A stretch of DNA of 63,766 nt, from NCBI GenBank assembly GCA_024398615.1, contig JAKSIU010000014.1, forward strand, positions 1 to 63,766, given 5' to 3'. Below the pieces are notes generated by a model. It searched no databases. It was not told where the DNA came from and was given only the letters and a program-made list of their open reading frames with translations. How positions within the stretch are numbered: position 1 is the stretch's first letter; each line of letters starts with the position of its first letter. This document shows, piece after piece, positions 112 through 15,085 of the stretch. The stretch comes from Bacteroidaceae bacterium. GTDB taxonomy: Bacteria > Bacteroidota > Bacteroidia > Bacteroidales > Bacteroidaceae. Position numbers and translations under genes: made by a program.

Positions 112-2694
112 TTAATTCTGTGGTCTAATCGGCAGTATTCTGCCATCAGCCAACATATATGCATAATCTGGAGCGAACCATTTCCTCGTTTTATTCCAGT
201 CACAGAACATTGTACATGGCGTAGCGGTTTTTCCGTTCTCATTGAGTGAGAGTTTCACGTATCCAAATGGCTTTGTCCAAACACAGTCACCATTTTCGCT
301 GTGTAACAGTTTCATATTATTATCCGCATACCGCTGAATACAAGTAGCATCAAAAAAAGGCAGTTCCTGAATTGCCCGGTCCATTTGCTTTATCACATTT
401 GGAACAATTGAATAATCGTATCCCAATGCTTTGCCTATATTCTTAAGAGTCTGTTCCTTATGCCATTCAGCAATGCAAGAATAATCATTATTACCCTCAT
501 TGAGCCAGTCACAAACAGACATAACTGCCAGAGTAAGTTCAAAAGCGTTCCGTCTGTAACTGTTAACCTTTTCAGCCACCAACGATGAATCATTGTCATT
601 CAGTTCATTTTGAAAAATGAATGTGCTGAATGCATTCACAATCCGGAAAAGATACTCTGTTATTGTAGTTCTGTTTATTTGCGAAAAAGCAATCTTTAGC
701 AAGGGATAATATTCCCCAGGTTTGGCTTCAAGAGTATATCTGAAACTGAGAAGACGATGAATGAAAAACATTGCAGCCATATACCGCTTCAATTCATTCA
801 TCCGACTGATGGTTATTGCCTTATTATTCGGTCCTGAATGAGAGTGCAAATATGTCAGGTAAGCATCAAACATCTTTATTATCCGTTTGGTGACATCATC
901 TGCGCTCTTTGGTTTGAGGCCCTCTATTACAGAAGTACGCGGTCTGTTTTCCTTTCCGACAGATTTTCTGATATCCTCAGTCTCTTCATCATCAAAACCT
1001 TCATCTTCCTTTTCCTTTGACGAACGGGAGATATATGAAATCATACTGTCAAACAGCAGTGTGGAACGCATCGCTGACGCGCCGTTTTTTCGGGAGCGTA
1101 CATCACCTGTAATTCCAGTACCGTCATCATACAAATAGTCCTCCAACGAATCAAATACATATCCTTTTTCATTCGATTTATCCTTCTTTGTACTCTCAGA
1201 CGGTATAGATTTCAATTTCATGTTTCCCTCTGTATCGGAAAGGACCTGTTCTATAAACCTAAGAACCGAACCGCTTATGAATTGACCGGCCTCAATCTCA
1301 CGGCATCTGCGACGGTAATTTAAGCTCTCCGGTGATGGTTCATTCAGAATCATACTATATGAAGGAATAACGAACTGACGGTTTGATATTACGTTTCCGT
1401 CTGAATCCTGAACTTCGACATAAAGTGGATTGATTATCCCATTCAACAATCCGTTTAGGTTATTATTACCCTCTACTATCACTTCAATATGAGTACTGCT
1501 TGTCAGCCTGTCACCCGAAAAGAAAATGACTTTGGCATCCTTGATACATACAGGACTGTCAATCTTGATATTATAACGGCCATCATCGTATGAAGCTTCC
1601 TTTATCCATATTGAGGGCTTGATGTCTGAAGGCTTATCCTCTCTACTATTATTCTCTTTCAGTTCGGTTCTGTTGACGGGATCTGTCAGATTGAAACCAG
1701 TCTCTTCCAGATAATCCACAATGCTGGATTTATAGCCAACGCTTGCTTCATGATTGGCAGAAGGAACTCCTGGCAGGCCGAAAGCAGCTACAGAAGCATT
1801 GGAACTTCCGCATAGCACATAGTTGTAGTTCTTGCCTTTGAAAAAGATACATTTTGCGTGATAGTATTTCTGATATTTGCCTTCCGGACGTATACTGTCC
1901 CACTTGAACAGATTAACATAGTCAGGAATGTATTTTATCAAAGGTACTGCACCGAAATCATCCTCAATGATGACATTCATTCTTGCAGGATGGAACTGCT
2001 CATACAAAGTTTTTATCAGTTCAGCTCTACTGTCATAGAATGGAGACATCACTGTTATCTCCTCAATTTGGTCATCGGCTATCCAATCAACACATTGGGA
2101 AAAGATATTCGATCTCTCATTAGTAAACAGCCTGATGCTGCTGTATTCGTCAATTAGATGCTCGGCATCGTTTTGATGAAAATCAGTCTGCAGCAATTCA
2201 CAATTCTCCTCAACTGACTTTATTATGTTTTCAGCCTCATCACCAAGATTCCGATACAACGATTTCAAATATTGCCATACTTCTCGAACAAATGGATATG
2301 TCGGACTGGCTGGACTATCTGCCACGACAGGTGTCCAGACCTCCATATTTCTGCCATGTCCGCATATCGTCAGATTTCCTGAACCGATCAGAGCCATAAC
2401 ACTGTCCCTTCCAACATAGAACTGGATTTTTGGATGGAATGCTCCTTTCAGTTTATAACCATGCAGACTGAATTCCAGAGGTTTTCTGTTGGTGAACGCT
2501 TTTGAAAACTTCAGCAGCTGTTCTGACAGGCAGTCAGCATCCACAATTGCAGACACAAAGTTTATTCCCTTCTTTGATAATGTCTGCAACAGTTGGATAT
2601 TCCAATAATACAGGTTTATGGAATATGACGTCATCAGTACAGAATGATACTTGCCTGATGGGATATTCGAATATATGGGTTTCAGTTCTATCAT
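112..2694 (-). CDS. PLD-superfamily (HKD) nuclease-like protein, candidate defence operon
   Basis: An 860-aa protein with two phospholipase D-type half motifs. The first is HPK at residues 87-89 followed by GSGN at 104-107; the second is HAK at 279-281 followed by GSSN at 296-299. Paired HxK...GSxN motifs are the active site of PLD-family nucleases. The C-terminal ~500 residues are unrecognised. A longer frame reaches back to 2835, but I chose ATG 2694 because it overlaps the upstream gene's TGA as ATGA, which implies translational coupling, and because the extra residues look non-native. It is the fourth gene of the operon and resembles DISARM DrmC only in general domain type. The function is inferred: DNA cleavage or restriction of incoming DNA. 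Confidence 0.8.
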   Translation of the reverse strand: MIELKPIYSNIPSGKYHSVLMTSYSINLYYWNIQLLQTLSKKGINFVSAIVDADCLSEQLLKFSKAFTNRKPLEFSLHGYKLKGAFHPKIQFYVGRDSVMALIGSGNLTICGHGRNMEVWTPVVADSPASPTYPFVREVWQYLKSLYRNLGDEAENIIKSVEENCELLQTDFHQNDAEHLIDEYSSIRLFTNERSNIFSQCVDWIADDQIEEITVMSPFYDSRAELIKTLYEQFHPARMNVIIEDDFGAVPLIKYIPDYVNLFKWDSIRPEGKYQKYYHAKCIFFKGKNYNYVLCGSSNASVAAFGLPGVPSANHEASVGYKSSIVDYLEETGFNLTDPVNRTELKENNSREDKPSDIKPSIWIKEASYDDGRYNIKIDSPVCIKDAKVIFFSGDRLTSSTHIEVIVEGNNNLNGLLNGIINPLYVEVQDSDGNVISNRQFVIPSYSMILNEPSPESLNYRRRCREIEAGQFISGSVLRFIEQVLSDTEGNMKLKSIPSESTKKDKSNEKGYVFDSLEDYLYDDGTGITGDVRSRKNGASAMRSTLLFDSMISYISRSSKEKEDEGFDDEETEDIRKSVGKENRPRTSVIEGLKPKSADDVTKRIIKMFDAYLTYLHSHSGPNNKAITISRMNELKRYMAAMFFIHRLLSFRYTLEAKPGEYYPLLKIAFSQINRTTITEYLFRIVNAFSTFIFQNELNDNDSSLVAEKVNSYRRNAFELTLAVMSVCDWLNEGNNDYSCIAEWHKEQTLKNIGKALGYDYSIVPNVIKQMDRAIQELPFFDATCIQRYADNNMKLLHSENGDCVWTKPFGYVKLSLNENGKTATPCTMFCDWNKTRKWFAPDYAYMLADGRILPIRPQN

Positions 2695-4232
2695 TGGCCA
2701 AGAATATTGAAACCACGTTCTGTAACTCTGTAACAATTGCCTTCCGGTCCAATCCATTTCATGTCCTCCATATACTGCAGGGCATTCTGAAGCCTGGGAG
2801 AAGTTCTGATTGGAACAGGCCTTCTCAATTCCCATATCAGGCCGTCTTCAACCAGATAATTGTGAACAAGACCCTGACCTATGGTTGACTTTGAATATGA
2901 GCTTTTCAGATGATCATTGATGGCAAAGAATATGCAATTCTCAACATGATCCCAAGTACCAGCCATTTCTTCGCCTTTATCCAACTTTGGAAGCAATAGT
3001 GGAGCATATCCGGGATGAGTGATATCATAACCTTCACAAAGGCTGAATTCACATAGTTGTTCCGTCCAAACACTGATAATGCCATTCAGCTTGTGTAACA
3101 TATATGAAGCATTACAGACTAGAGCTCCGCAGTCATTCGTTTTATGGCCATCCAGAATCCTATGATACAGTTCATATATGTCATCCGTGTCGGAATAGTT
3201 CGGTTTATATTTGTCAAATTCCTGTTGTATAGCCTCCAATACATATTCCAAAGGCTGCGGTTCAGACGTTATTTTGTAAAGAATGACAAAATGAAACGCT
3301 TCATACGCCGTATGCGATAATTCATTCAGTTCATACAGAAACCATGACAACTCCTCAGAAGATACCTTCAACTGTTTTTCTAATGTATGAAGGAAATTGT
3401 ACTGAAGAAATGACAGCACCATGTCACGGCGTTCGGTTGAAGAGCCATCACCGTCAATGTATCTCATCATCAATTTGAGAGAATTGATTCTATGACAGAC
3501 ACTACCTTCACCCGTATCAATACGGTCCGGAGTACAGAATATTCTTTGATAGTCTTCAAGTTCAGCCTGACTGCCTACGACATGAATTGCCAAAGACCTG
3601 AGTTCATTCAATTGTTCTTTGGTGATGTTTCCGGAATATATGGCATTCCAGAAAAGATCTTCAGTCTGTTCCGTAAGACATGACTGATAACTCTCATACA
3701 GTTGGAATCCCTCCGGTGTGACACGATAAGTACAATGTTTTGCATCGGGTTGGAAAATCAGTCTGAGCTGAGTCAGTACGCCAATATAATACTGGCCAAA
3801 TATGCCATATTGGTTCTGCCAGTATATTTTGTTTTTGCCTTTATTCTCATAATCGGCGCCCTTAGCCAAATCAAGATCATCTGAAGTAATATTGTTCAAT
3901 GCATATGTGCTGCCACTCACACCGGTAACATCCGGGTAATGACAGGCCATTACGTAGGCCAACAGCAGTTCTCCTCTACGAACCAGTCTGATCTGCTCTG
4001 ATAAATCGTCCACTTTGGTTCTGTCTGCCAACTGCAATCGCTGAGCAATCAATGTAAGCAACCAACAGAAAAAGCCATTGTATCGTACCCTAGCAGTAAC
4101 GTTGGTGATACCTGTTACCATATTGGAATAGATTACAATGCTGCTGTTCTGAACTGCCAATGGATCACGGCCGCCTTTTGTAGTAGTTGCCGAGCCCCAA
4201 AATGGGAATGGAGTATCTGTAGGTTCAAACAT
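2691..4232 (-). CDS. Unrecognised 513-aa protein of the defence operon
   Basis: A 513-aa soluble-looking protein with no signal peptide or membrane segment. I do not recognise a family. The N-terminal third has a conserved-looking block (TGITNVTARVRYNGFFCWLL, near residues 40-60), the middle is helical and charged, and the last ~50 residues (around RRPVPIRTSPRL and VTERGF) could be a winged helix; that last point is inference only. It lies 124 bp downstream of the methyltransferase and ends in an ATGA overlap with the PLD gene, so the two products are probably made together, perhaps as complex partners. Candidate roles are target recognition or a structural subunit, as with the unassigned subunits of DISARM or BREX. 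Confidence 0.7.
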   Translation of the reverse strand: MFEPTDTPFPFWGSATTTKGGRDPLAVQNSSIVIYSNMVTGITNVTARVRYNGFFCWLLTLIAQRLQLADRTKVDDLSEQIRLVRRGELLLAYVMACHYPDVTGVSGSTYALNNITSDDLDLAKGADYENKGKNKIYWQNQYGIFGQYYIGVLTQLRLIFQPDAKHCTYRVTPEGFQLYESYQSCLTEQTEDLFWNAIYSGNITKEQLNELRSLAIHVVGSQAELEDYQRIFCTPDRIDTGEGSVCHRINSLKLMMRYIDGDGSSTERRDMVLSFLQYNFLHTLEKQLKVSSEELSWFLYELNELSHTAYEAFHFVILYKITSEPQPLEYVLEAIQQEFDKYKPNYSDTDDIYELYHRILDGHKTNDCGALVCNASYMLHKLNGIISVWTEQLCEFSLCEGYDITHPGYAPLLLPKLDKGEEMAGTWDHVENCIFFAINDHLKSSYSKSTIGQGLVHNYLVEDGLIWELRRPVPIRTSPRLQNALQYMEDMKWIGPEGNCYRVTERGFNILGQ

Positions 4233-4356
4233 GCTATGCTATTTGGCATAAAAAAGTGTCATCTTCCAAGGGAGTAATACATAATGCCGTTGATCGATCA
4301 ATTATTCGTCTCTATTACCTTCAACCAATCCTCAAAAAACATATCTAGAATTACAA

Positions 4357-7300
4357 TCAGTTGTGTCGGAAATTGTCATATTCCTCACGGGTGATTGGAG
4401 TCTCGGGGTCAATGACCAATACTTCATCGTAGGTCAAAGAATAGAGATGATAGACAATATTGTCAATCTCATTTTCAAGGTCAGAAGTATCCGCTTGCGG
4501 ATTAGTCTTTTTGGCTGATAGGATGCGGTCAACGAGAGATTCGATGGTTGCACGCATTTCCTTGTTTGCTACCACAATAGGCAAATTTACTATATTCTGA
4601 GCTAACCATCGTACTCCTGACTTGCCGAGTCTTGTACAATAGTATGTAGAATATGCATATTCTATTAGTTTAGAGTTTAATAACGCAATCAAATACTTAT
4701 CGTATTCTTGACTGTGTATATAGTATGCCGAATTATTCAACATATATATTCCATCTTCATCAAAAGCAAATGTACTTCCTTGCGAGAGTTCCTGGTATAT
4801 GATCTTTGTAAAACCAAGCTTTCCAAATTTTTCAATTCTTGCTCTCTGCATGCAATACCATTCATATCTTATACCAGTTTCAGTCTTGTCACGAGAGGAT
4901 AATTTAGCCTTGTATTTACAAATATGCTTGTAAACTGCAGGATATAATTCTTCAAATTTGCGTTCAGCCTCAGATGAAGCACCTTTTATATCTGAGTTAT
5001 CATTCAGAGGGAAATGAATAGGAATGTAAACCATCCATAATCCTCCCCATGAGTAATTGTATTTACTTATCTCGCGCCCCCTGAGCATAGGATGTATGAT
5101 TGATTTGGTCCTTTCCAATTCTTCTTCAGTTGAACAATTGTTTAACAAACCTTCTTTTTGCTCTTCGTTCAATACGTATGCTTCGTCAAAACCAGTTCCA
5201 ACACCTCTTGTCAAGACCAGATCCCAGTTACCCAAAGGCTTACCTTTTATTTCAATCTTGCGTTTGATACCAGTATCCTCTATGGGTATTATTGTCCAAG
5301 CATCTGATGAAACGAATGCAATTTCTGTACACTTACTATTGAAACTTGAATAAAGGTCATTAATACATTCTGGTTCACTTAGCCATGCACATTTGGTTTG
5401 TTCTATGTTCTCGTCGTTAGTTAACAATAAAATATTGACATCTACGGTAGCATTCTCAAATATCTTAGTTCCGGTAAAATCTAATAACAGTTTTGGATTG
5501 CATTTCTTTGCAAAAAAATTTCGAGTTGTTTTACCATAGCTTGCTCTCATCCATTTATTAGAAGTTATATAGCATAATACCCCCTTCTTTTTCAACAGAT
5601 TCATTCCATGTTCATAAAACAAGCAATAGATATCACCAGTCTTCTCAAAAGTAGCAAAATTGCAATCTTTATATAGATCACCAAGTTTCATATCATATTC
5701 CTTCCCTTTGCTATCAATTCCCTTCCTGTGTATATCTGTTTGTAACTGAATGTAGGGCGGATTGCCGATAACAATGTCAAAGCCAGGATTCTCACCTTCA
5801 AACACTTCGGTAAACATTATCCGCCAGTCGAAAAAGCGGATATCCGTCTGGGCTCGAACCGCCAGCGGCTTTGATGTGTCAGACAATTGCTTTCTCAATG
5901 ATGCTCCCAAATCCAAGACTTTCTGTTTGTCGGCAGGCAACTGTTCTTTCATATCCGCGAAAGACAGTTGTTTAGGGCTATCATCAGGGAACAAGGCCAA
6001 CTGTTCTGCATTCTTGTCATACCAGGTACGAATCTCATAGCCCAACTGCATAGATATCAAGGACAGTATTGAATCCTTAATCTCTATATCCAACTGATAC
6101 TTGGATTCACCATTAGCCGAATAGTATCTCTGCTTCAGGCCATACAGGCGGGCCTTTTCTCTCTTCATATCTTCAACACGAACATGCTGCTGGCTCTTGG
6201 TATCCAGATTAATGTATTCGCCATTGAAAGTGGTAATCAAAGAGTTGCCCTGCATAAATTTGTAATCGAGGTTGGGAAGCGGCTGCGGCTCCTGTTCATC
6301 GACAACAATGCTCAGCCAAAAACGCAAACGGGCTATATCAATGGCACCGCGTTCAATATCAACACCGTAAATGTTATTGTTGATTATTTCACGTTTTAAT
6401 GCTGCATAATCGCCTGTGAGTAATCTGCCTGAATTATCCTTAGCCCATGCATCAATAGAGACACGGCAGCGAACTAGTTCGTTAAGCAGTCCCATGGGAA
6501 ATGCACCTGAGCCGATAGCCGGATCACAAATATGCACCTTGCGCAAATCATTTCCAAAATCCTCTTTTGCCTGTTGCTTCATTCCAGGCACTTTGGTTTC
6601 GGGATCCTTAACCAGTCTACGAACTTCAGTTTCGACACTGTCACGTGTAAATGAACCGTTACGCTCCATAAAGCAGGTGGTCAGATATGCAATCAGGCTC
6701 TCGCGGCACATATATTGCACAATCTCTTTGGGCGTATAGTATGCACCCTTGTCCTTATTGTCCTCCAGCAGATTCTCGAAAATACGTCCAAGCATTTCCG
6801 GGTCAATACCCACCTCTGCATCATCGGGATCATTTTCATCAATAGTGAAGTTGTACTGATAGAAGAATTCAAATAGGTCTGCAAAATATTCGGCAGGGAA
6901 AGCCGATGCAGGTTCATCCAGCTCATCGCGTTCAAACAGTCCGCCATTCAGATATGGAATCCTAATTTCTGTATATCCAGGCACATTCAGATTAAACACA
7001 TCGTTCTCTCTTTGGACATTAAGAGCACCGGAAAACAACGGCTCTAGAACGGCATCAAGATAATTCTGTTTCTGTTCATCGCTGCTTGCCTCAAACAAAT
7101 GCTTCATAAACTGAGGGTCACCATCACCCCACTGGCCGCCGGCAGGAACGCCTAGCCATCCTTTTTTTTGCAGGAAATGCAGGAATACAATACGTCCCAA
7201 CAGTTTCTTCACATAGTCGCGGATTATTTTGTCCTCCCAGGCAGAAAACTCAGGACCAAAATATTCACGATTATCCTTATTGTCATACACGAACTGACAG

Positions 7301-7902
7301 AAGCGCTCATAATGGACCTTGTACTTGGCAAAAAACTCCTTACTTAGAGCTTCCACATCGAATGCCTTGATAATATCTTCCATCTCAAACTCCCCGCTGC
7401 CTGAAATCTTCTCGCCAAGTTTGAAAAAGTTTTCTGCCGCAGTTCTGCAAGACTGCCCTGGTCCCAGAAGGAATGTGTATCTCTTTGTATCGCTGGAATC
7501 TAACTGATTTGCCCCCTTATGGCAGAAAGTGAATCTCCAATCCCAGTGTTCGGTCGTCTGATAATGGAATATCATGAACGCTCCTGAATGTGACGATATT
7601 ATTCTTCTGACAAGTTGCTGTATGCCGACTCTGCTGTTGGTAAGCTGTCGTTTGGAACTAACAGTAATATCAAACAAATCCAGTTGAGAACTTTCGACAT
7701 AAAGGCTGCCAAGAACGAGAATATCCACAATTCCGGCATTATCGGCAGCGGTCTGGTCTTCCGGATGTTTATGCAGCCAATGGTAGTTGCCCGAGCTGTC
7801 ATAGTTTTCTTCTCCGAAAACGGGAAAAATCACATTCTCAAGAAATGCTGATGGACTCTCATACTTTTTCTGGAGAAACTCCTTCAGTGCAATCTTATCC
7901 AT
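4357..7902 (-). CDS. Eco57I/type IIG-like N6-adenine DNA methyltransferase with TaqI-like specificity domain
   Basis: An 1181-aa protein with the gamma-class amino-methyltransferase layout: motif X-like GAYYTP near residue 390, SAM-binding motif I DPAIGSGAF near 460, and catalytic motif IV NPPY near 712. The C-terminal ~350 residues, including the stretch around KLGFTKIIYQE and LNSKLIEYAY, fit a TaqI-like target-recognition domain. The N-terminal ~190 residues carry DITVSSKR but no nuclease motif I can be sure of, so cleavage activity is unproven. The length matches type IIG enzymes and BREX PglX-like proteins. It follows the PLD-SNF2 gene by 18 bp. The likely role is self-marking of the host genome by adenine methylation, with cleavage by the PLD proteins; this role is inferred. 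Confidence 0.85.
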   Translation of the reverse strand: MDKIALKEFLQKKYESPSAFLENVIFPVFGEENYDSSGNYHWLHKHPEDQTAADNAGIVDILVLGSLYVESSQLDLFDITVSSKRQLTNSRVGIQQLVRRIISSHSGAFMIFHYQTTEHWDWRFTFCHKGANQLDSSDTKRYTFLLGPGQSCRTAAENFFKLGEKISGSGEFEMEDIIKAFDVEALSKEFFAKYKVHYERFCQFVYDNKDNREYFGPEFSAWEDKIIRDYVKKLLGRIVFLHFLQKKGWLGVPAGGQWGDGDPQFMKHLFEASSDEQKQNYLDAVLEPLFSGALNVQRENDVFNLNVPGYTEIRIPYLNGGLFERDELDEPASAFPAEYFADLFEFFYQYNFTIDENDPDDAEVGIDPEMLGRIFENLLEDNKDKGAYYTPKEIVQYMCRESLIAYLTTCFMERNGSFTRDSVETEVRRLVKDPETKVPGMKQQAKEDFGNDLRKVHICDPAIGSGAFPMGLLNELVRCRVSIDAWAKDNSGRLLTGDYAALKREIINNNIYGVDIERGAIDIARLRFWLSIVVDEQEPQPLPNLDYKFMQGNSLITTFNGEYINLDTKSQQHVRVEDMKREKARLYGLKQRYYSANGESKYQLDIEIKDSILSLISMQLGYEIRTWYDKNAEQLALFPDDSPKQLSFADMKEQLPADKQKVLDLGASLRKQLSDTSKPLAVRAQTDIRFFDWRIMFTEVFEGENPGFDIVIGNPPYIQLQTDIHRKGIDSKGKEYDMKLGDLYKDCNFATFEKTGDIYCLFYEHGMNLLKKKGVLCYITSNKWMRASYGKTTRNFFAKKCNPKLLLDFTGTKIFENATVDVNILLLTNDENIEQTKCAWLSEPECINDLYSSFNSKCTEIAFVSSDAWTIIPIEDTGIKRKIEIKGKPLGNWDLVLTRGVGTGFDEAYVLNEEQKEGLLNNCSTEEELERTKSIIHPMLRGREISKYNYSWGGLWMVYIPIHFPLNDNSDIKGASSEAERKFEELYPAVYKHICKYKAKLSSRDKTETGIRYEWYCMQRARIEKFGKLGFTKIIYQELSQGSTFAFDEDGIYMLNNSAYYIHSQEYDKYLIALLNSKLIEYAYSTYYCTRLGKSGVRWLAQNIVNLPIVVANKEMRATIESLVDRILSAKKTNPQADTSDLENEIDNIVYHLYSLTYDEVLVIDPETPITREEYDNFRHN

Positions 7903-7920
7903 ATTTGTGTTATTTGTATT

Positions 7921-10900
7921 TTACTTGTTTATTCCTATGAATACCTGTGGCTTTCCTTGTCTCATTTCCACTTCTGCTACCATTTTAGCTATGCCATCAT
8001 TCAGGTAAGCATCGAATTCTTCTTGAGTAATTGGGAAAAGCGCATTCTTTTCGGCAACAGCCTGACCAATTTTAATGATACGTTTTATTATATCATTGTT
8101 GCCATAACGAACAAGTTTGTCAGCCGCAGATAGAAGCTTTCTGGATTCGGCAGACATTGTCTGATTATCCCTCAGTTCCTTGATGATGCCCTTTGCTTCA
8201 GTAGCCTTTTTGGAATTGCCTTTGCGGAACCTGGCATCTGCAAGTTCGGCAGTCACCACACGCTCAGCCTCCTTCTTCATGGCCCCCCAATTGTCTGGAA
8301 GGCCACATTTCTGTGCAGCCTGCATAGGTCTGACAGTCTCAAACATATCAAAGATGGATATAACCTTGCCCTCATCTTCATTTGGATTCACTTTTACAAA
8401 CATTCCGGCCATCTTGGGCGTGCGTACAAGGAAATATCCGTTTCCGTTGGCAGGCACTGCTGACATTTCTAGTTCTTCGTTCTGTGCCTCAATCTGAGCA
8501 TAGCGTTCAGGGTGAGACGCCTTATACTCTTTCAGTTCATAAACGTATTTTTCAAGTGGTGAGGCCTCGCCGTTCACTATTTCGTTGAGCTTGTAATGAG
8601 CAACCTCCTCATCTTCTGAGAATACCTTGCTGTCCTCACCGAATAGAGTATGGAACGACTGTAGTTTGGTATGTGCCTTTCTGACCAGATTGATTTCTGC
8701 GTCACCTTCGGCCGATGGCATGAAGTTAAATACATACACAAACTTTTCAGCACTACCAATTCGGTTCACGCGCCCGATACGCTGCATAAGTTTGGTGGAG
8801 TTCCAAGGAGTATCATAGTTCAATATGCAGTTTGCCCTATGTAGGTTAATACCTTCTGCAAGAACATCTGTTGTCACAATGATGTCATAATCGTTCTTCC
8901 ATTCGCCTTTATAATTCGCATCAAAATTTTCCCTGATTGTTTGCTCCTTATCATGGCGGTTGGCTGCTGTAATCATAAGGACTCTATATCCTTTGCTTTG
9001 TGCTGCATCAGAAATTGTTGTTGCTGTGTCAATAGCTTCGGTAAATATTACAAGTTTCTGCGGACGGTTTCTTTCCTTGTCAAACAATACATATCTGAGG
9101 CTTTCCTTGAATTCATCGAATTTCGGGTCTTCCGAATTAAGTGACCATTTGTCGTACAAGTCACAAACCAGTTTGTAGTCATGTCTCAGCAGATTAATAT
9201 AATCCGAATCGAAATCGTCCCTTGTATACTCTTTGTTCTCACCATCTTCGTTACGGCCATCTTCCGTTAATTTCAGAATTTTCTTTCTAATATCCTCTAC
9301 GCATTCATCGAATGAGACATTATGACCTCTCTTTTGTTTCTTTGCTTCTACATCAAGCTCTGTATTCACGTCAATAGCAGGACAGATGAATATGGTATTG
9401 TTTTCCCACATCCTAATCATGTTGTCCGTATATCGGCGCAGGTTGAGCAGAGACTGCTTAAATGCGGTAAAACTGCTTTCCAGTCTCTTGACAAGATTGA
9501 TTTGCATTATCTTGGCCAGCTGAAGGGCAAGTGTGTCAGTATCGCGATTACCACGACCGGCATACAGTTTCTTGTCATCAGGGTTGGTAAGAAACTGTAC
9601 AGCTCTGTACCTGTAATAGCAAAGATAATCCGAGTTATCAAACCTGAAATTTTCCTTTGGTGCTATCAGGCTCATCGTCTCATAAAACAGGTTTGCAAGT
9701 TTCGAACTCATCTTATATTTGAGTCCGATAGGACCGTTTATGTCAGGGAATGCTATTCCTTGACGTTCAATATCATTCTTATAGTACTCCTTGACATCGG
9801 TTCTGGTACGACGGACCATAATGTCAGAAAGTATACAGTCACGTATTCTGCCGGATAATTCCTTTAACTTTTCCTGGCGCTCAACTGGACTCATATCATC
9901 ACTGGCATACTCGTCTGCATCTTTGTCCGATTCTTTGCTAGTGATTAATTTTACATACTCTGCATTGATTTCCGTAAAGAAACTCTCTATGTTTCCACCG
10001 TTCGCTTTCTTGAGCGTGGATTCGTTATGATTACGTTCAAAAAGATAAATCTGATTTTTCAGATCATTGGGTCTGTTATTCTGAGGCGTTGCACTGAGAA
10101 GCCCAATGTAAGGATAGTTGCCTGTATCACAACCAATTTGCTCAATAAGTTCGTCGAGAGACCTATACATGCCATTATCGCTATTGCGGAACTTATGACT
10201 TTCATCAATAATGATCAGTCCGTAATTTTCAGTTTTGAGTTCTGTTTCAAAACTGCCGGAATCACTTTCATCATCAGCTGTGACTTCATCGTCAACCAGT
10301 TTCCCGATACTTCCTGTAGTGATATAATCAATACATGGACCAATAGGATCAACACAATCCTTATCGAATTCTTTAATTGTATCAATCCACGATGAACGAA
10401 TAGCAGGAGGGGTAACAATGAGCACTTTTCTCTCACGGCCATCTTCATCCGGGAAATTCAGGAAATGTTTAATAACTAACGTACCAACAATAGTTTTCCC
10501 AAGTCCTACGACATCGGCCAACATAAAACCGCCATGTTGTTTCATTGTGGAGAAGCACTGCTTTACGGCATCCATCTGATAATCGAAGCTATCGAAACGA
10601 CAAGGCAGATAGCTTTCAATCATGTCTCCAAATTTCTTATCCACAAGGTCACCAAACTTCGTCTGAAGGAGTTTTATGTAAAGCTCATATGGAGTAAGTG
10701 GCTTATTTGTAACCTCTGACGTCTCCGGTTCTGGTATTGTCACCTCTGGAGCCATCTTTGACTGAGTAATTTGTAGCAGGAACTCCTTTTCCCATGATTC
10801 AGAGTAATCCCATTTCTCGTTGAACCACATAAGGTGAGTCTTATCTTTCCTGAACTCTGGGTCAAGGGAGATTACATCACGAGCATTATCTTCAAGAGTA

Positions 10901-11484
10901 TTTAACTCCGCATTACCCTCCATGCCACGCTGGGTAAAGTTAGAACTGCCAATAATACCATATCCAACGGGACAGTCCTCTTCGTTGTCGTAACCTTTGA
11001 AAATAAAACATTTTGAGTGTAGGAATTGATCTTTCAATTCACCCTCAGGTTTATAAATGTGAATCTGAAACTTTTCATTGTCCTTGTCCTTGAGATTATC
11101 CACCAGCAGTTGGACAGTCTTGACGTATTGCTCCTGTGCGGCGAACTTATCCAGTTCCACACGCCATGCCTGTTCCTGTTTGTCGTAACGTCCCTTAGTG
11201 AAGCTCTCTGTATCTCCAGAGTAAAGGTATGGGTCCTTTCCTATTAACAGACGGAATTTGGCACCTTCGCGAGAAAGAAAACTGGCAAGTTCATCGTACA
11301 CAAGTGTTGTACCACGTAGATCCCAAAAGCCAGTAGCTATACAAACCTCAGTGATGTTTGTATCTTCCAGGCATTCTTTGAGAACCTCCGTCATATTATA
11401 ACCTTCAGGCGAGTTGTCAATAAGCGTTCTTCTAAGTTTCATATAAAGAGTAATTAGGCGTTTAATAATTGTATTTTCTTGCAA
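7921..11484 (-). CDS. PLD nuclease - SNF2-type helicase fusion
   Basis: An 1187-aa protein. Residues ~30-240 hold a PLD half-site (HSK at 156-158, GSSN at 179-182). Then comes a two-lobe superfamily-2 helicase of SNF2/RapA type: Walker A VVGLGKT at 325-331, Walker B variant DESH at 427-430, motif III LLSATP, and motif VI QRIGRVNR near residue 920. The C-terminal ~200 residues are charged and unassigned. One HKD half-site usually means dimerisation or pairing with another PLD protein, such as the fourth gene here. It is the first gene of the operon and is followed at 18 bp by the methyltransferase. ATG codons at residues 15 and 31 are alternative starts. The family is clear; the defence role is inferred from context. 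Confidence 0.85.
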   Translation of the reverse strand: MQENTIIKRLITLYMKLRRTLIDNSPEGYNMTEVLKECLEDTNITEVCIATGFWDLRGTTLVYDELASFLSREGAKFRLLIGKDPYLYSGDTESFTKGRYDKQEQAWRVELDKFAAQEQYVKTVQLLVDNLKDKDNEKFQIHIYKPEGELKDQFLHSKCFIFKGYDNEEDCPVGYGIIGSSNFTQRGMEGNAELNTLEDNARDVISLDPEFRKDKTHLMWFNEKWDYSESWEKEFLLQITQSKMAPEVTIPEPETSEVTNKPLTPYELYIKLLQTKFGDLVDKKFGDMIESYLPCRFDSFDYQMDAVKQCFSTMKQHGGFMLADVVGLGKTIVGTLVIKHFLNFPDEDGRERKVLIVTPPAIRSSWIDTIKEFDKDCVDPIGPCIDYITTGSIGKLVDDEVTADDESDSGSFETELKTENYGLIIIDESHKFRNSDNGMYRSLDELIEQIGCDTGNYPYIGLLSATPQNNRPNDLKNQIYLFERNHNESTLKKANGGNIESFFTEINAEYVKLITSKESDKDADEYASDDMSPVERQEKLKELSGRIRDCILSDIMVRRTRTDVKEYYKNDIERQGIAFPDINGPIGLKYKMSSKLANLFYETMSLIAPKENFRFDNSDYLCYYRYRAVQFLTNPDDKKLYAGRGNRDTDTLALQLAKIMQINLVKRLESSFTAFKQSLLNLRRYTDNMIRMWENNTIFICPAIDVNTELDVEAKKQKRGHNVSFDECVEDIRKKILKLTEDGRNEDGENKEYTRDDFDSDYINLLRHDYKLVCDLYDKWSLNSEDPKFDEFKESLRYVLFDKERNRPQKLVIFTEAIDTATTISDAAQSKGYRVLMITAANRHDKEQTIRENFDANYKGEWKNDYDIIVTTDVLAEGINLHRANCILNYDTPWNSTKLMQRIGRVNRIGSAEKFVYVFNFMPSAEGDAEINLVRKAHTKLQSFHTLFGEDSKVFSEDEEVAHYKLNEIVNGEASPLEKYVYELKEYKASHPERYAQIEAQNEELEMSAVPANGNGYFLVRTPKMAGMFVKVNPNEDEGKVISIFDMFETVRPMQAAQKCGLPDNWGAMKKEAERVVTAELADARFRKGNSKKATEAKGIIKELRDNQTMSAESRKLLSAADKLVRYGNNDIIKRIIKIGQAVAEKNALFPITQEEFDAYLNDGIAKMVAEVEMRQGKPQVFIGINK

Positions 11485-11642
11485 TCCAAACTATAAATTG
11501 GTTGATTTGGTTACATTGAAACACATAACCTTCAAAAATACTAATTATTCCTTATGCTATTATAGCAACAGTTCGTTAGTTTTATAAAAATCATACTGCG
11601 GCTCTGACGCCGTAGAACAAAAGTTCTTTGAAATCAGTGTTA
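11485..11642. other. AT-rich leader ahead of the defence operon
   Basis: A non-coding stretch upstream of the PLD-SNF2 start codon, so the operon promoter should lie here. I see AT-rich sequence and small inverted repeats (for example GAAC-AAAA-GTTC near 11608) but no confident -7/-33 pair. Confidence 0.3.
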
Positions 11643-11875
11643 TTAAATCTCATGTCCGCATGTTTTCCGGACATGGAAATAAATCGCTCCACCAATACGC
11701 ACGTCATCACGGAAGATGCTGACAAGATTAAAGCCAAGCTTCAGTACACCGTGACGAAGCTTTCCTTGGAGAAGTAGGCATCGGCAACAAGAAACTTGCA
11801 TACAGTTTATTAATTTCAGCAATAGCCTTGTCAAACTTGGCTAACTCTTCATTGATAAACTCTTCCTCATCCAAA
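11643..11875 (-). pseudogene. Transposase remnant (DDE, IS4-like)
   Basis: On the minus strand three reading frames in succession spell pieces of a DDE transposase: EEFINEELAKFDKAIAEINK in one frame, then KFLVADAYFSKESFV in a second (the VADAYFS block with the catalytic Asp), then HGVLKLGFNLVSIFRDDVR in a third. In intact relatives these blocks are continuous (VADAxFS...GFxLVSRFRDD). At least two frameshifts and a missing N-terminus show that the gene is dead. It sits between the defence operon promoter and a broken helicase, suggesting that insertion of an element contributed to loss of that gene. I saw no terminal inverted repeats. Confidence 0.6.
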
Positions 11876-11968
11876 TAACTGTTCTTTTCTTCTTTCTCAG
11901 TAATAACTGGATGGTTCTTTATCTTTCGGATTTCTAAGAAAAGAGGATAATATTTCCGGAATGACAGA

Positions 11969-12306
11969 TATAGGGTACAGAAAACATTTCGCCTTGCCCG
12001 AACCTGTTCCGGTAGTAAGAATGGTTGGTTCAGGTCTGTGACCTCCGTGAGTATGCAGGCGCTAAAATGATTTCAGCTGATGCCTATGCGATGCAAAATT
12101 TGGCTTGATTGCCAACGCAAAACGGTCAATCTCGCCCGGTGCAGCCTTGACAAAAGGAGTTTTCAATGAAATATACGGTCCTTTGCCCCCTAATACCGTA
12201 GTTTTGGTCGGGAAATTGATTTCCTTATCAAGCTGTAACTTAAACTCTTTCAATTTGTTACCTTTAAAGTTTACAAACTCAATATTCAGATTCTGCTGAA
12301 TAGTCT
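11969..12306 (-). pseudogene. Superfamily-2 helicase N-terminal remnant (DUF1998/DrmA-like type)
   Basis: A minus-strand frame reads EIDRFALAIKPNFASHRHQL, then an in-frame TAG at 12064-12062, then RPEPTILTTGTGSGKAKCFL. The second part is a Q-motif/Walker A block (P-loop at 12013-11993) of the type PTIxTTGTGSGKTECFLYPI found in large DEAD/DEAH helicases of the YprA/DrmA kind. The TAG replaces what is usually a Gln codon, GKT has become GKA, and the frame diverges after CFLYPIS, so only a fragment of the helicase survives. It is oriented like the intact operon just downstream, so it may once have been the operon's first gene. The family call is from memory of the motif, so moderate confidence. 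Confidence 0.55.
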
Positions 12307-12381
12307 ATCTTGCCACGATGATGGATTGCGGCATCAACCAGTGCGGTTTTTCACCGCAACTATTTTATAGGATGTTCCTGA

Positions 12382-12600
12382 CAAGCGGAGTCGCCGGCGG
12401 CTATTGACGGGACATTCACCATTTCTCCTGAATACTGGGCAGGATGGGGCCTGGCATACTATCAATGGAAATCCGGAAAGTCCTTTCGCTTCATTCACGA
12501 TCTTGACAAGTTCGCCGCCGTAGCTGACAGAATTATAGCGGAAAACGTCAATACGTCTACAAGGCCTCAAAACGCGAACAACACGAAATCATTTCACTGA
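12382..12600 (+). pseudogene. Remnant of a toxin-antitoxin-associated protein
   Basis: An open plus-strand stretch without a start codon reads SPEYWAGWGLAYYQWKSGKS and FRFIHDLDKF and ends with TGA. The EYWxGWALAYYQWxxxxSF block is typical of small proteins encoded beside DUF3791/DUF3990 toxin-antitoxin-like cassettes in Bacteroidales. The N-terminal two thirds and the partner genes are absent, so it is a dead fragment of an accessory cassette. The identification rests on the motif as I remember it. Confidence 0.5.
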
Positions 12601-12940
12601 AAAGTGATGCGGTTTGAATACAAATGACCACATTTGCATACAAGCCGCTCATCCCGACCACACCTCGGCTCGCACTCTGAAATCTTCGGATAAGCGATTT
12701 GTCAGTCAGTACCCCTGTAACTACCTAACTTTCAATAATTTCAAAGAGCGTTTATAAATTTTTACCGGACACTAATGTAAGTAGAACATAAAAGATGCCA
12801 AGGTATTTGGTCCATCTCCAGCAAACTGACAGCTGAAAGAACTGAAAGATTTTCCGGATCATGAACAGAAAAATCTACTATCCGTCAGGCATCCGATGTA
12901 ACGGACAACGCCATTCATGTTCGTTTACGGGTTACGGCCG
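12601..12940. other. Non-coding stretch within the remnant zone
   Basis: I see no gene here. The stretch at 12811-12856 (TCCATCTCCAG ... GATTTTCC) is an imperfect direct repeat of 13371-13415, on the far side of the HU-like pseudogene. Confidence 0.35.
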
Positions 12941-12943
12941 ATG

Positions 12944-12981
12944 CAAAAAAAGCAAGGCCCTATGGCGTTCCATAGGGTCTT
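12944..12981 (-). terminator. Rho-independent terminator of the HU-like pseudogene
   Basis: CCCTATGG-CGTT-CCATAGGG forms a perfect 8-bp stem (12958-12977), extendable to about 12 bp with one G-U pair. On the minus strand it is followed within 5 nt by seven T. It lies just past the HU-like remnant, which points to that former gene's own terminator. Confidence 0.8.
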
Positions 12982-13002
12982 GTTGGTTAATACTTGGCAG
13001 TC

Positions 13003-13173
13003 CCACACCACATTCACACCGGTGATGTTCTGGGCGCTGAAACGGTCGGCACGGGAGTACACGCAGCCGTGGCTGCTGATGTGGCGGGCGAACTTCCCGA
13101 CACGGCTCTTAGCCTGGTTGATTTCAAAGAGATTGCCGTTCACTGAACGCATAACGATGGAATAATTGATCAT
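13003..13173 (-). pseudogene. HU-like (IHF/HU family) DNA-binding protein, internally deleted remnant
   Basis: Starting at ATG 13173 the minus strand reads MINYSIVMRSVNG ... KFARHISSHGCVYSRAD and then jumps to RFSAQNITGVNVVW. These are the start, the KFAxHIxxHGCVYSRAD block and the NITGVNVVW block of the Bacteroidales 'HU-like DNA-binding, histone-like' proteins, which are usually ~130-170 aa. About 60 codons of the middle and the C-terminal tail are missing, so the DNA-binding arm is lost. A strong terminator lies right behind it. Intact paralogues are common beside mobile regions in this order. Confidence is good on family and that it is defective. Confidence 0.65.
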
Positions 13174-13500
13174 AGCAGTTGAAATGGATTTAATGCACTG
13201 CTTTGTTCTTCGGATGAGTTTCCAAACGGCATTCATCCGAATCACGCCACAAAGATACAGCCGCAATAAGCCGAAGTCAATGGTTGTCCCGGATTCCGTG
13301 CAGGGTACCCTCCGGACTCCCGTTCCGTGAGCGTTTGGCGGCAATCCGCTCACCGCGGGAAACGACAGTATCCATCTCCAGAAGGCTGTAATCTGTAAGA
13401 ACTGTAAGATTTTCGTTAGGTCTTGCGTGCCCAATCCTGCCTTGGAGTATCTGGAAGCGCGTTTTACGGATGTTCCAGCACTGGACCCGCTGACTTCACA
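13174..13500. other. Region upstream of the HU-like remnant
   Basis: No gene is supported. It holds the presumptive 5' region of the HU-like remnant and, at 13371-13415, the second copy of the imperfect 45-bp repeat found at 12811-12856. Confidence 0.35.
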
Positions 13501-13503
13501 ACC

Positions 13504-13596
13504 GGAAGAATTTGACGTTTCACCCTGAAATGCTTGACGTTTTCAACTGAAATTGCTTGACTCTTTTCCTGAAAAAATTGACTTTTTAGCCGGAAA
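13504..13596. repeat. Four imperfect ~22-bp direct repeats anchored on TTGAC
   Basis: TTGAC occurs at 13512, 13534, 13557 and 13578, spaced 22, 23 and 21 bp. Each copy is followed by a T-rich run and CTGAAA or a variant (CCGGAAA in the last). The ~22-bp period is about two helical turns, so one face of the DNA could present repeated protein contacts. It could also be a decayed minisatellite. No reading frame here is convincing. Confidence 0.5.
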
Positions 13597-13765
13597 GGCC
13601 ACAGTTTCATCTGAAAGATTTCAACCATTTCGGCAACAAAACAGAGCCATTCCAGCATAATTTTCACGGCATCGTGACAGAAAAGCCACATTTTGCCACT
13701 TTGGTTTCTGTGAAATGGTTCGCCGACCGTTGCCTTCACCAGCAGTCATGCTCCAGGCCGGAAGG

Positions 13766-14002
13766 CAGCATTCGGTGGAACGGAAACCGCCACCCAAAGG
13801 ACGGTGTGGCGGGGGATGTGCCGGGCCATCGTGGAGTGACCGGAAAAGCGTGAAAGAACGGAGGCCGGAAAGGGCCGCGGCTGTCTGAGCGGCAAAGCCG
13901 CGAGTTCCGCGGACCCAGCCGCAGAGACGCGCACGCCGGTCACGGAAAGTCGGCCCGTCACATCCCCACCTCACCGGCCGTGGCGGTTCCCGCTCCACCG
14001 CT
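13766..14002. repeat. GC-rich palindromic element, copy 1 (237 bp)
   Basis: Nearly identical to 15101-15338: by eye 7 substitutions and one 1-bp indel, same orientation. The element ends in imperfect inverted repeats (CGGTGGAACGGAAACCGCC against CGGTGGAGCGGGAACCGCC when the right end is reverse-complemented). Complementarity continues inward for tens of bases, with an inner hairpin built on CCGCGGCT/AGCCGCG. It is far richer in G+C than its surroundings. I saw no target-site duplication. It looks like a MITE-like or other structured mobile repeat. Confidence 0.8.
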
Positions 14003-14066
14003 AGAGGTGTGACGGCTTCAATGTATTTTTTGTGGTTTCGATATAATGACATTCCAATCCGCCAGC

Positions 14067-14074
14067 TATCTTTG
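14067..14074 (+). promoter_or_regulatory. Candidate -7 element of the Rpn gene
   Basis: TATCTTTG fits the Bacteroidetes -7 consensus TAnnTTTG and lies 43 bp ahead of the chosen ATG. No clear TTTG -33 box is visible at the expected distance. Confidence 0.4.
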
Positions 14075-14116
14075 TGCCAAAGAGAAATCAGTCTCTCTTT
14101 GTTCAAATCAGTACCT

Positions 14117-15085
14117 ATGAAAAGAAAATCTGAACATGACACACTGACATACGGCAAGTACGTGAACCTGATGAACGATGTCGCGTTCCAGTGGGTGTTC
14201 TGCCGCGAGGACAACAAGGACCTGCTCATAGCCCTGCTCAACGAGCTGATACCGGAACTTCGCATCGAGGATCTGGAGTTCTACCGGAACCGCCAGCAGT
14301 CATACGCCAAAAACCTGAAAGACAGCGTGTTCGATGTGTCGTGCATATTGTCCGACGGCACCCGAATCAATGTCGAGGTGCAGGTTCGTGCCCAGGACTG
14401 GTTCGCCGACCGCTGTCTGTACTATTCGACTTACTGCATCCAGGACCAGGTCAAGAAGGGCCAGGAGGACTACAGCCTGAAACCGGTGTACATAGTGTCG
14501 ATAATTGCCTTCACCCGCCAGCATGCCCCGGATTGGGACGGCAGCATCCTGTCCAGCTACTCGTTGCGTGAAGACCGCACGCACGAGCTGATGACTGACA
14601 ACCTGCATTTCGTGTTCGTTGAGCTGGCGCATTTCGACAAAAAGTGGGAAGATATTGACAATGACAAGGAAAGATTCTACTTTTGCATTCGCAGGCTGCA
14701 CGAGTTGGACGTCCTTCCGGATGGTTTTGCCGAAGGCATATGGGCCAAGCTGGCCCGTCAGAGCGAGCTTGCGGCAATGGAATCAAGTGTAAAGATAAAA
14801 TACATAAATGCTATGACAACCGATATAGACAGACGCGCCCAGATGAAATACGCCAAGCGCGTAGCCCGCGAAGAAGGCCTGGCTGAGGGACGTGCTGAGG
14901 GACGTGCAGAGGGACGTGCTGAGGGACGTGCTGAGGGACGTGCAGAGGGACGTGCTGAGGGACGTGCTGAAGGCGTTGAGCAGGGCAAACTGGAGACCGC
15001 ACGTAACTTGAAGGCCGAAAACATTCCTGCCGATGTCATTGCCAAATGTACTGGTCTGACCCTTGAGCAGGTAGAGAACCTGTAA
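14117..15085 (+). CDS. Rpn-family recombination-promoting nuclease / putative transposase (PD-(D/E)XK)
   Basis: A 322-aa protein of the Rpn/PD-(D/E)XK putative transposase family. The N-terminal ~240 residues contain the family's NDVAFQWVF block (residues 20-28) and the nuclease core VFDVSCILSDGTRINVEVQ, with catalytic-type Asp73 and Glu87-x-Gln89. The C-terminus has eight AEGR/AEGV repeats encoded by a 12-bp DNA tandem repeat, then a helical end. The open frame reaches back to 14009, but I chose ATG 14117 because the upstream residues are not family-like and a -7 box falls inside them. It is flanked on both sides by copies of a 237-bp palindromic element. Known family members nick or cut DNA and promote recA-independent recombination. 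Confidence 0.85.
   Translation: MKRKSEHDTLTYGKYVNLMNDVAFQWVFCREDNKDLLIALLNELIPELRIEDLEFYRNRQQSYAKNLKDSVFDVSCILSDGTRINVEVQVRAQDWFADRCLYYSTYCIQDQVKKGQEDYSLKPVYIVSIIAFTRQHAPDWDGSILSSYSLREDRTHELMTDNLHFVFVELAHFDKKWEDIDNDKERFYFCIRRLHELDVLPDGFAEGIWAKLARQSELAAMESSVKIKYINAMTTDIDRRAQMKYAKRVAREEGLAEGRAEGRAEGRAEGRAEGRAEGRAEGRAEGVEQGKLETARNLKAENIPADVIAKCTGLTLEQVENL
14882..14977 (+). repeat. Eight 12-bp tandem repeats encoding AEGR
   Basis: Seven units of GC(T/A)GAGGGACGT follow one another exactly, then a diverged eighth (AEGV). The unit is a multiple of 3, so slippage changes protein length by 4 residues without a frameshift. Confidence 0.9.

Follow-up and report, generated by a model that had tools for sequence, protein, structure and literature searches.

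Do the four long genes at one end of contig JAKSIU010000014.1 (C6) of a Bacteroidaceae bacterium (GCA_024398615.1) form a single defense system, or more than one? The window analyzed is the entire contig, 63,766 nt, and belongs to a 2.46-Mb genome assembly of 72 contigs, with an estimated completeness of 81.7%. The initial annotation, made from the sequence alone, described four long minus-strand genes with gaps of 18 and 124 bp and one ATGA overlap, an arrangement recovered in the open reading frame (ORF) calls, and listed an adenine methylase, an SNF2 motor, and PLD nuclease domains, a parts list that domain scans and conserved residues confirm. It proposed either a reduced DISARM relative or a separate restriction-like system. 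Named A to D in the order of transcription, the genes look instead like two modules back to back: A+B, a restriction-modification (RM)–like pair, and C+D, a predicted nuclease pair. In the reading that we favor, at a probability of about 0.65, two defense modules share one codirectional block, and C+D would be an independent, exchangeable add-on nuclease cassette.

Neighborhoods of the Two Gene Pairs

Module 1 consists of A (7921..11442, minus strand), a predicted motor-nuclease of 1173 aa with a single N-terminal HKD (PLD) half-site fused to an SNF2/ResIII helicase, and B (4357..7902, minus strand), a type IIG-like adenine methyltransferase of 1181 aa with a TaqI_C-type specificity domain, the putative modification and recognition component. 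The two are 18 bp apart, and 124 bp separate B from module 2. The first gene of the latter, C (2691..4232, minus strand), codes for a 513-aa winged-helix protein, a putative remote relative of DUF6361/ZacA and the presumed sensor or DNA-binding partner; the second, D (112..2694, minus strand), codes for a predicted nuclease of 860 aa that has two HKD half-sites and overlaps C by the ATGA. Only 111 bp separate D from the end of the contig, and anything farther downstream is outside the window. The longest ORF of A (7921–11484) has a TTG start and 1187 aa, and the internal ATG at 11442, giving 1173 aa, is the likelier start because the aligned homologs begin near it. The longest ORF of D runs to 2835, and homology supports the ATG at 2694, within the overlap with the C stop codon.

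A search for A in 395 genomes of the phylum gave 29 at E 1e-60, including the window's own; adding 3 of 19 plasmid records to 20 of the 28 other genomes gave 23 opened A neighborhoods. A homolog of B adjoins A or sits one gene off in all 23 (two being trimmed by contig ends, and one having B split into two ORFs), and neither C nor D occurs within four genes of A in any of them. Searches for C in genome contigs, genome sets, plasmids, and viral contigs led to 33 distinct opened loci besides the window (duplicates L002–L007, L093, L095–L098, and L102–L107 left out). D adjoins C on the same strand in 32 of these 33, with D before C in L101; only L020 departs from this, with a match of 79 residues inside a 1,081-aa ORF. 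A+B is absent from all 32 other C+D pairs in the sequence examined, five of which have little upstream sequence. Pairwise identities of C and D covary (rho 0.79 over 22 loci, 0/2000 permutations, uncorrected for shared ancestry). Both gene pairs occur in one genome, G046, on separate contigs (C10 and C44), which is further evidence of separate modules.

The survey around the 513-aa protein that the initial annotation had called for thus gives D as its partner, not A+B. The four genes are not conserved together, the outcome named in advance as speaking against a single system, and the restriction-like description fits A+B but not all four genes.

C+D is rare. It was found in 5 of 394 other genomes of the phylum (the L020 genome left out), in 4 of 394 genomes of the class, and in 7 of 358 of the family, these being overlapping sets searched at different thresholds; C was found in none of the 20 same-genus genomes listed for the family search. 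The pair extends to plasmids of α- and β-proteobacteria. Fifteen plasmid records contain C, of which nine were opened; among the other six, two share coordinates with an opened one, three are 40-residue matches, and the last, from Sphingobium, has a D match beside the C match.

Exchange of the C+D Cassette

The strongest result of the analysis is that C+D is exchanged in both directions. One cassette occurs in different hosts, and different cassettes occur in one host, as follows from a comparison of five loci and from a comparison of HsdR proteins.

In the five loci (L009, L010, L014, L021, and L022), C is 86.3%–95.7% identical in all ten pairs, and D is 84.3%–94.4% identical in the six pairs that remain when L009, whose D is broken, is left out. 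Upstream there is a type III system in L009 and in L021, a type I system in L010, another type I system in L022, and only a GIY-YIG gene in L014. The two type I sets are 28%–42% identical, and the two type III methylases are 34% identical over 119 residues. DNA homology among the five loci (79.9%–92.0%) sets in within 11 bp of the C ATG in eight of the ten pairs and stops within 36 bp of the D stop codon, again in eight of ten. The exceptions are L010–L014, with the GIY-YIG gene in common as well as 97 bp after D, L009–L021, with 120 bp upstream in common, and L009–L022, with ∼1.35 kb downstream in common. L021 and L022 also have 2.5 kb (73%) in common, beginning ∼0.9–1.4 kb after D, and hence may be at related sites.

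The converse is found among three type I loci. The HsdR of L110 is 96.5% identical to that of L112 and 87.9% identical to that of L109, yet neither of these loci has a D more than 26.8% identical to that of L110. DNA homology between L110 and the other two breaks off 1–25 bp short of the C ORF, and about 8–15 bp short of it where the HsdRs are 96.5% identical. By contrast, L109 and L112 align from hsdR through D (73%). Since the exchange junction falls at the C start codon, the exchanged unit would usually bring no upstream promoter, and its expression would follow the host operon.

Partner Operons

Among the 33 C+D pairs, window included, 28 have enough upstream sequence for partners to be tallied (L012, L016, L100, L101, and L108 being too short). 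In 15 of the 28, by our own tally, C+D is codirectional with a DNA motor in an operon-like run. The accompanying genes are A+B in the window, TmtA and a DrmD-type helicase in L008, a DrmD-type helicase in L029, type III RM in L009 and L021, Zorya II in L024 (Polaromonas), and type I RM genes in L010, L013, L015, L018, L022, L027, L109, L110, and L112; in L015, L018, and L110, HsdR is the only one of these identified, and L112 was assigned by its 96.5% identity to the L110 HsdR. In L027 (Myroides), C+D lies between hsdS and hsdR, and in L015 HsdR is several genes upstream, with a DpdF-like helicase after D. In three further loci (L017, L019, and L025), C+D is near a motor system. SWI2_SNF2 domains number about two per genome (100 matches in 51 genomes), and by our arithmetic ∼1% of random points would be expected within 10 kb of one. 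The tally shows an association with defense islands, which is not by itself cooperation.

A GIY-YIG gene was considered as a dedicated third gene of the cassette and rejected. GIY-YIG, T5orf172, or DUF4357 genes are found beside C+D in L008, L010, L014, L025, and L029, and the small upstream genes of L009, L018, L022, and L026 match neither those genes nor each other by blastp at 1e-3. After D, a SIR2 gene and a C39-peptidase-like gene occur in L008 (14151–15513), L009 (14119–15487), and L022 (13136–14539), the second label resting on a weak Pfam match in L008 and L009 and on annotation in L022. An ADP-ribosylglycohydrolase follows D in L021 (14178–15020). NAD/ADP-ribose genes are possible companions of the cassette.

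The A+B Pair

The domains of A are one PLD half-site and an SNF2/ResIII/Helicase_C motor, and its best PADLOC match is "C3a139 HKD+Snf2" (157.7 bits). Residues H156, K158, G179, S180, N182, and E193, numbered on the 1187-aa ORF, are identical in all 24 aligned homologs, window included. B has Eco57I/N6_Mtase and TaqI_C domains, with REase_MTase_IIG as best PADLOC match (463.8 bits), and the motifs GSGA(F/Y)P and NPPY are kept in 21 of 21 aligned B proteins. The N-terminal regions of these 21 proteins have no conserved nuclease-type E-x-K. With the HKD residues conserved in A and no conserved nuclease motif in B, the likely nuclease of the pair is A. A+B shows sequence features of an ATP-dependent RM system, with adenine methylase motifs and a specificity domain in one gene and motor and nuclease in its partner; we infer that it modifies and restricts DNA.

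Inverted partial copies of B-like methylase/specificity genes lie beside a full-length B in L064, L073, and L080, and in L080 a master DNA invertase (Mpi family) is annotated. The recognition domain of A+B may be switched by inversion.

C, D, and Their Relation to Zac

Domain scans gave only subthreshold matches for both proteins of module 2, to a winged helix for C and to PLD for D. HTH_45 is matched at E ≤ 1 by 10 of 23 members of the C family, and the C-terminal part of C also appears winged-helix-like when the alignment is inspected by eye. In D, the first half-site comprises H86/K88/S104/N106/E117 and the second H278/K280/S296/N298/E315 (counting begins at the residue that follows the start Met). 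Nine of the ten residues checked are invariant in 31 of 31 aligned D proteins (L009 and L101 left out), and S104 is replaced by Thr in four. Members of the PLD superfamily act as phosphodiesterases via HKD half-sites, and because of this chemistry D is likely a phosphodiesterase with two HKD half-sites in one chain. Sequence profiles found no relative in the PDB for D (E ≤ 0.01) or for C (E ≤ 1), a fold search with the weak model of C gave no PDB match at E ≤ 0.001, and the window D has no match at E ≤ 0.001 among 50,697 phage records. Damaged copies occur: the D of L009 (about 11533–11865) lacks an intact 5′ part, and the C of L112 (minus strand, 9808–11322) is broken by an in-frame stop.

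The PADLOC models, whose use the initial annotation had recommended, match A, B, and D and return nothing for C. The match of D is a weak one to ZacB. Zac, a name from the PADLOC model library, comprises ZacA (DUF6361), ZacB (PLD), and ZacC (an SNF2-type helicase). All 22 members of the D family match the ZacB model at E ≤ 0.01 (3.8e-8 for the window D), and profile alignment by hhalign (E 5.2e-16) likewise marks D as a homolog of the ZacB PLD protein. For C, the ZacA model matches 12 of 23 members at E ≤ 1, and the DUF6361 model of Pfam matches 2 of 23, the best at 0.07. C and D thus appear to be remote relatives of ZacA (DUF6361) and ZacB, respectively. ZacC is present in eight of eight opened Zac loci, and no ortholog of it was found in 34 C+D sources (24 with at least 3 kb after D), where the best score is 43 bits, versus at least 1337 for true ZacC. 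C+D is apparently a helicase-less, Zac-like cassette, a nuclease pair that the PADLOC models cover weakly. A was considered as the missing ZacC and rejected, as it scores 14.8 bits.

Interpretation and Alternatives

Under the favored reading, B would methylate adenines in the site that its TaqI-like domain recognizes, and DNA lacking this modification would be cut by A, an SNF2 motor carrying an HKD nuclease of one half-site. C, through its winged helices, would sense or bind some feature of invading DNA and license D, the PLD phosphodiesterase with two HKD half-sites, to cut it. The exchanged unit, mostly from the C start codon to the D stop codon, would be transcribed by the defense operon in which it has landed and would act beside the host system as an extra layer of defense, with no particular partner needed. 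From sequence and gene neighborhoods we infer sensing by C, cutting of invader DNA by D, protection from phages or plasmids, and independence from the neighboring system. A partner-specific contact of C+D is unlikely because near-identical cassettes stand behind unrelated systems or behind none that is recognized.

Several observations weigh against this reading. A+B and C+D are together only in the window, where their juxtaposition could be due to chance. Ten of the 28 loci (L011, L014, L023, L026, L028, L030, L094, L099, L111, and L113) have no recognized motor nearby, a class defined from gene annotation and the ORFs scanned and not from every ORF, so that a partner is optional at most; in L023 an unclassified UvrD-type helicase lies ∼3 kb after D. 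A promoter-like match (10/12; minus strand, 4466–4438) within the end of B could give C+D its own promoter. It comes from a generic scan that gives 41 matches in the window versus 33.8 expected (standard deviation 4.8); no Bacteroides-type promoter was found in the 124-bp gap between B and C, with 3 such matches versus 0.7 expected in the whole window. The predicted structural models are poor (pLDDT 68 for C and 59 for D). The link to Zac is weak for C: the window C is unmatched by the ZacA model at E 1, and the hhalign match of C with ZacA (P 81, E 1.2e-5) aligns only 89 N-terminal columns. The window D reaches only E 0.05 against our own ZacB profile, and with 111 bp of sequence past D, a ZacC could lie beyond the contig end.

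The best-surviving alternative, which we hold to be possible though rather doubtful, is that C+D borrows the DNA-translocating motor of its neighbor in place of ZacC, as a plug-in effector common to unrelated restriction systems. D would cut DNA unwound by, or stalling, HsdR, Res, A, ZorD, or a DrmD-type helicase. The SNF2-type helicase that Zac has of its own in all its opened loci, its lack of an ortholog in the C+D sources, and the 15 of 28 loci in codirectional motor-bearing defense operons, when SWI2_SNF2 domains are so few per genome, are what this idea would predict. However, near-identical cassettes lie beside unrelated motors or none recognized, 10 of the 28 loci have no recognized motor system in the sequence examined, and a common defense island accounts for part of the enrichment. 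If true, restriction systems unrelated to each other would have a single interchangeable second-strike module in common.

It is improbable that C+D is a guard or abortive module like PrrC, silent until the host RM is inhibited or breaks DNA and then causing cell death. The hsdS–C+D–hsdR arrangement does parallel the embedding of PrrC (PMC12629846) and DarTG2 (PMC12255303) in type I RM operons, and three loci have a SIR2 gene after D. Such a guard, though, would require one and the same cassette to detect complexes as unrelated as those of type I, type III, and other systems, and copies of C+D exist where no RM is recognized.

Very little speaks for a new fused system of all four genes, a Zac-like set with methylation in which A would serve as the helicase of C+D. 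A, C, and D are of the same three kinds as Zac (SNF2, DUF6361-like, and PLD), and the genes are codirectional with small gaps. Yet A is not an ortholog of ZacC (14.8 versus at least 1337 bits), the B–C gap is 124 bp, and the neighborhood survey, with A+B and C+D together in 0 of 23 opened A loci and 0 of 32 other C+D pairs, largely refutes the idea. A reduced DISARM, finally, can practically be dismissed in spite of its SNF2, methylase, and PLD components, since the DrmD and DrmC scores are far below the cut-offs (141.2 of 610 bits for A and 15.5 of 133 bits for D), DrmMI scores below the type IIG families for B, and neither a DrmA helicase nor a DrmB DUF1998 protein is among the four genes.

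Defense genes are frequently nested in one another. C+D is a natural experiment in this respect, with one cassette in different hosts, different cassettes in one host, and junctions at start and stop codons. It makes the choice between cooperation with the host system and promoter riding directly testable.

Surroundings of the Block

The two-module block was probably acquired horizontally. Its GC content is 0.40–0.42, versus 0.495 in the window from 14 kb onward. Between the block and the next genes lie ∼2 kb (11485–13600) with no ORF of at least 200 aa, over which GC steps from 0.40 to ∼0.5. A degraded RM remnant was sought in 11485–14300, and tblastn at 1e-3 matched this stretch to none of the ORFs from the loci used in that comparison. 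The ORF at 14009–15085, with a repeated A-E-G-R tract at its end, is a candidate PD-(D/E)XK (Rpn-type) transposon nuclease.

Comparison with Known Systems

Type I and type ISP-like ATP-dependent RM systems unite a motor, a nuclease, and a methylase with a specificity domain. A+B resembles them, and the "C3a139 HKD+Snf2" and REase_MTase_IIG models, in having these components; it differs from type I and type ISP-like systems in its split into two proteins and in the HKD nuclease fused to its motor. None of the four genes codes for a separate S subunit, and the methylase is without a conserved nuclease motif. Assignments to BREX and Dpd were rejected, as the matches are to helicase or methylase cores and are far below the cut-offs where cut-offs exist. 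A is like the helicase of type-2 BREX-related systems in its N-terminal HKD nuclease; these systems are described as anchored on a DUF499 ATPase and DUF3780 (PMC12839542), neither of which is among the four genes to which the domain scan was limited.

In C+D as in Zac, a sensor-like protein is followed by a PLD protein; a weak match to DUF6361 comes from the N-terminal motif of C, D matches ZacB, and either set can sit between hsdS and hsdR. On a Haliscomenobacter plasmid (L087, 4513–17245), ZacABC occupies the hsdS–hsdR interval of a type I RM, the slot that C+D takes in L027. Unlike Zac, C+D loci yielded no ZacC, sequence identity is very low, and C is ∼100 aa and D ∼200 aa or more longer than ZacA and ZacB. 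Literature searches for DUF6361, for PADLOC with zac, and for Zac phrases returned no paper, none was found describing Zac, and ZacA and ZacB as words gave none on defense among the matches listed. The C+D pair is unnamed in titles and beginnings of abstracts among the matches listed; a preprint on embedded defenses (10.1101/2024.01.29.577857) may list it.

TgvAB (PMC11411939), DarTG2 (PMC12255303), and PrrC (PMC12629846) are reported as embedded in RM operons, the first two in type I RM. C+D is like all three in being a one- or two-gene cargo of type I RM operons, and names and described functions set them apart as different proteins. Unlike them, C+D is also found behind type III RM, Zorya II, TmtA/DrmD-type, and A+B operons.

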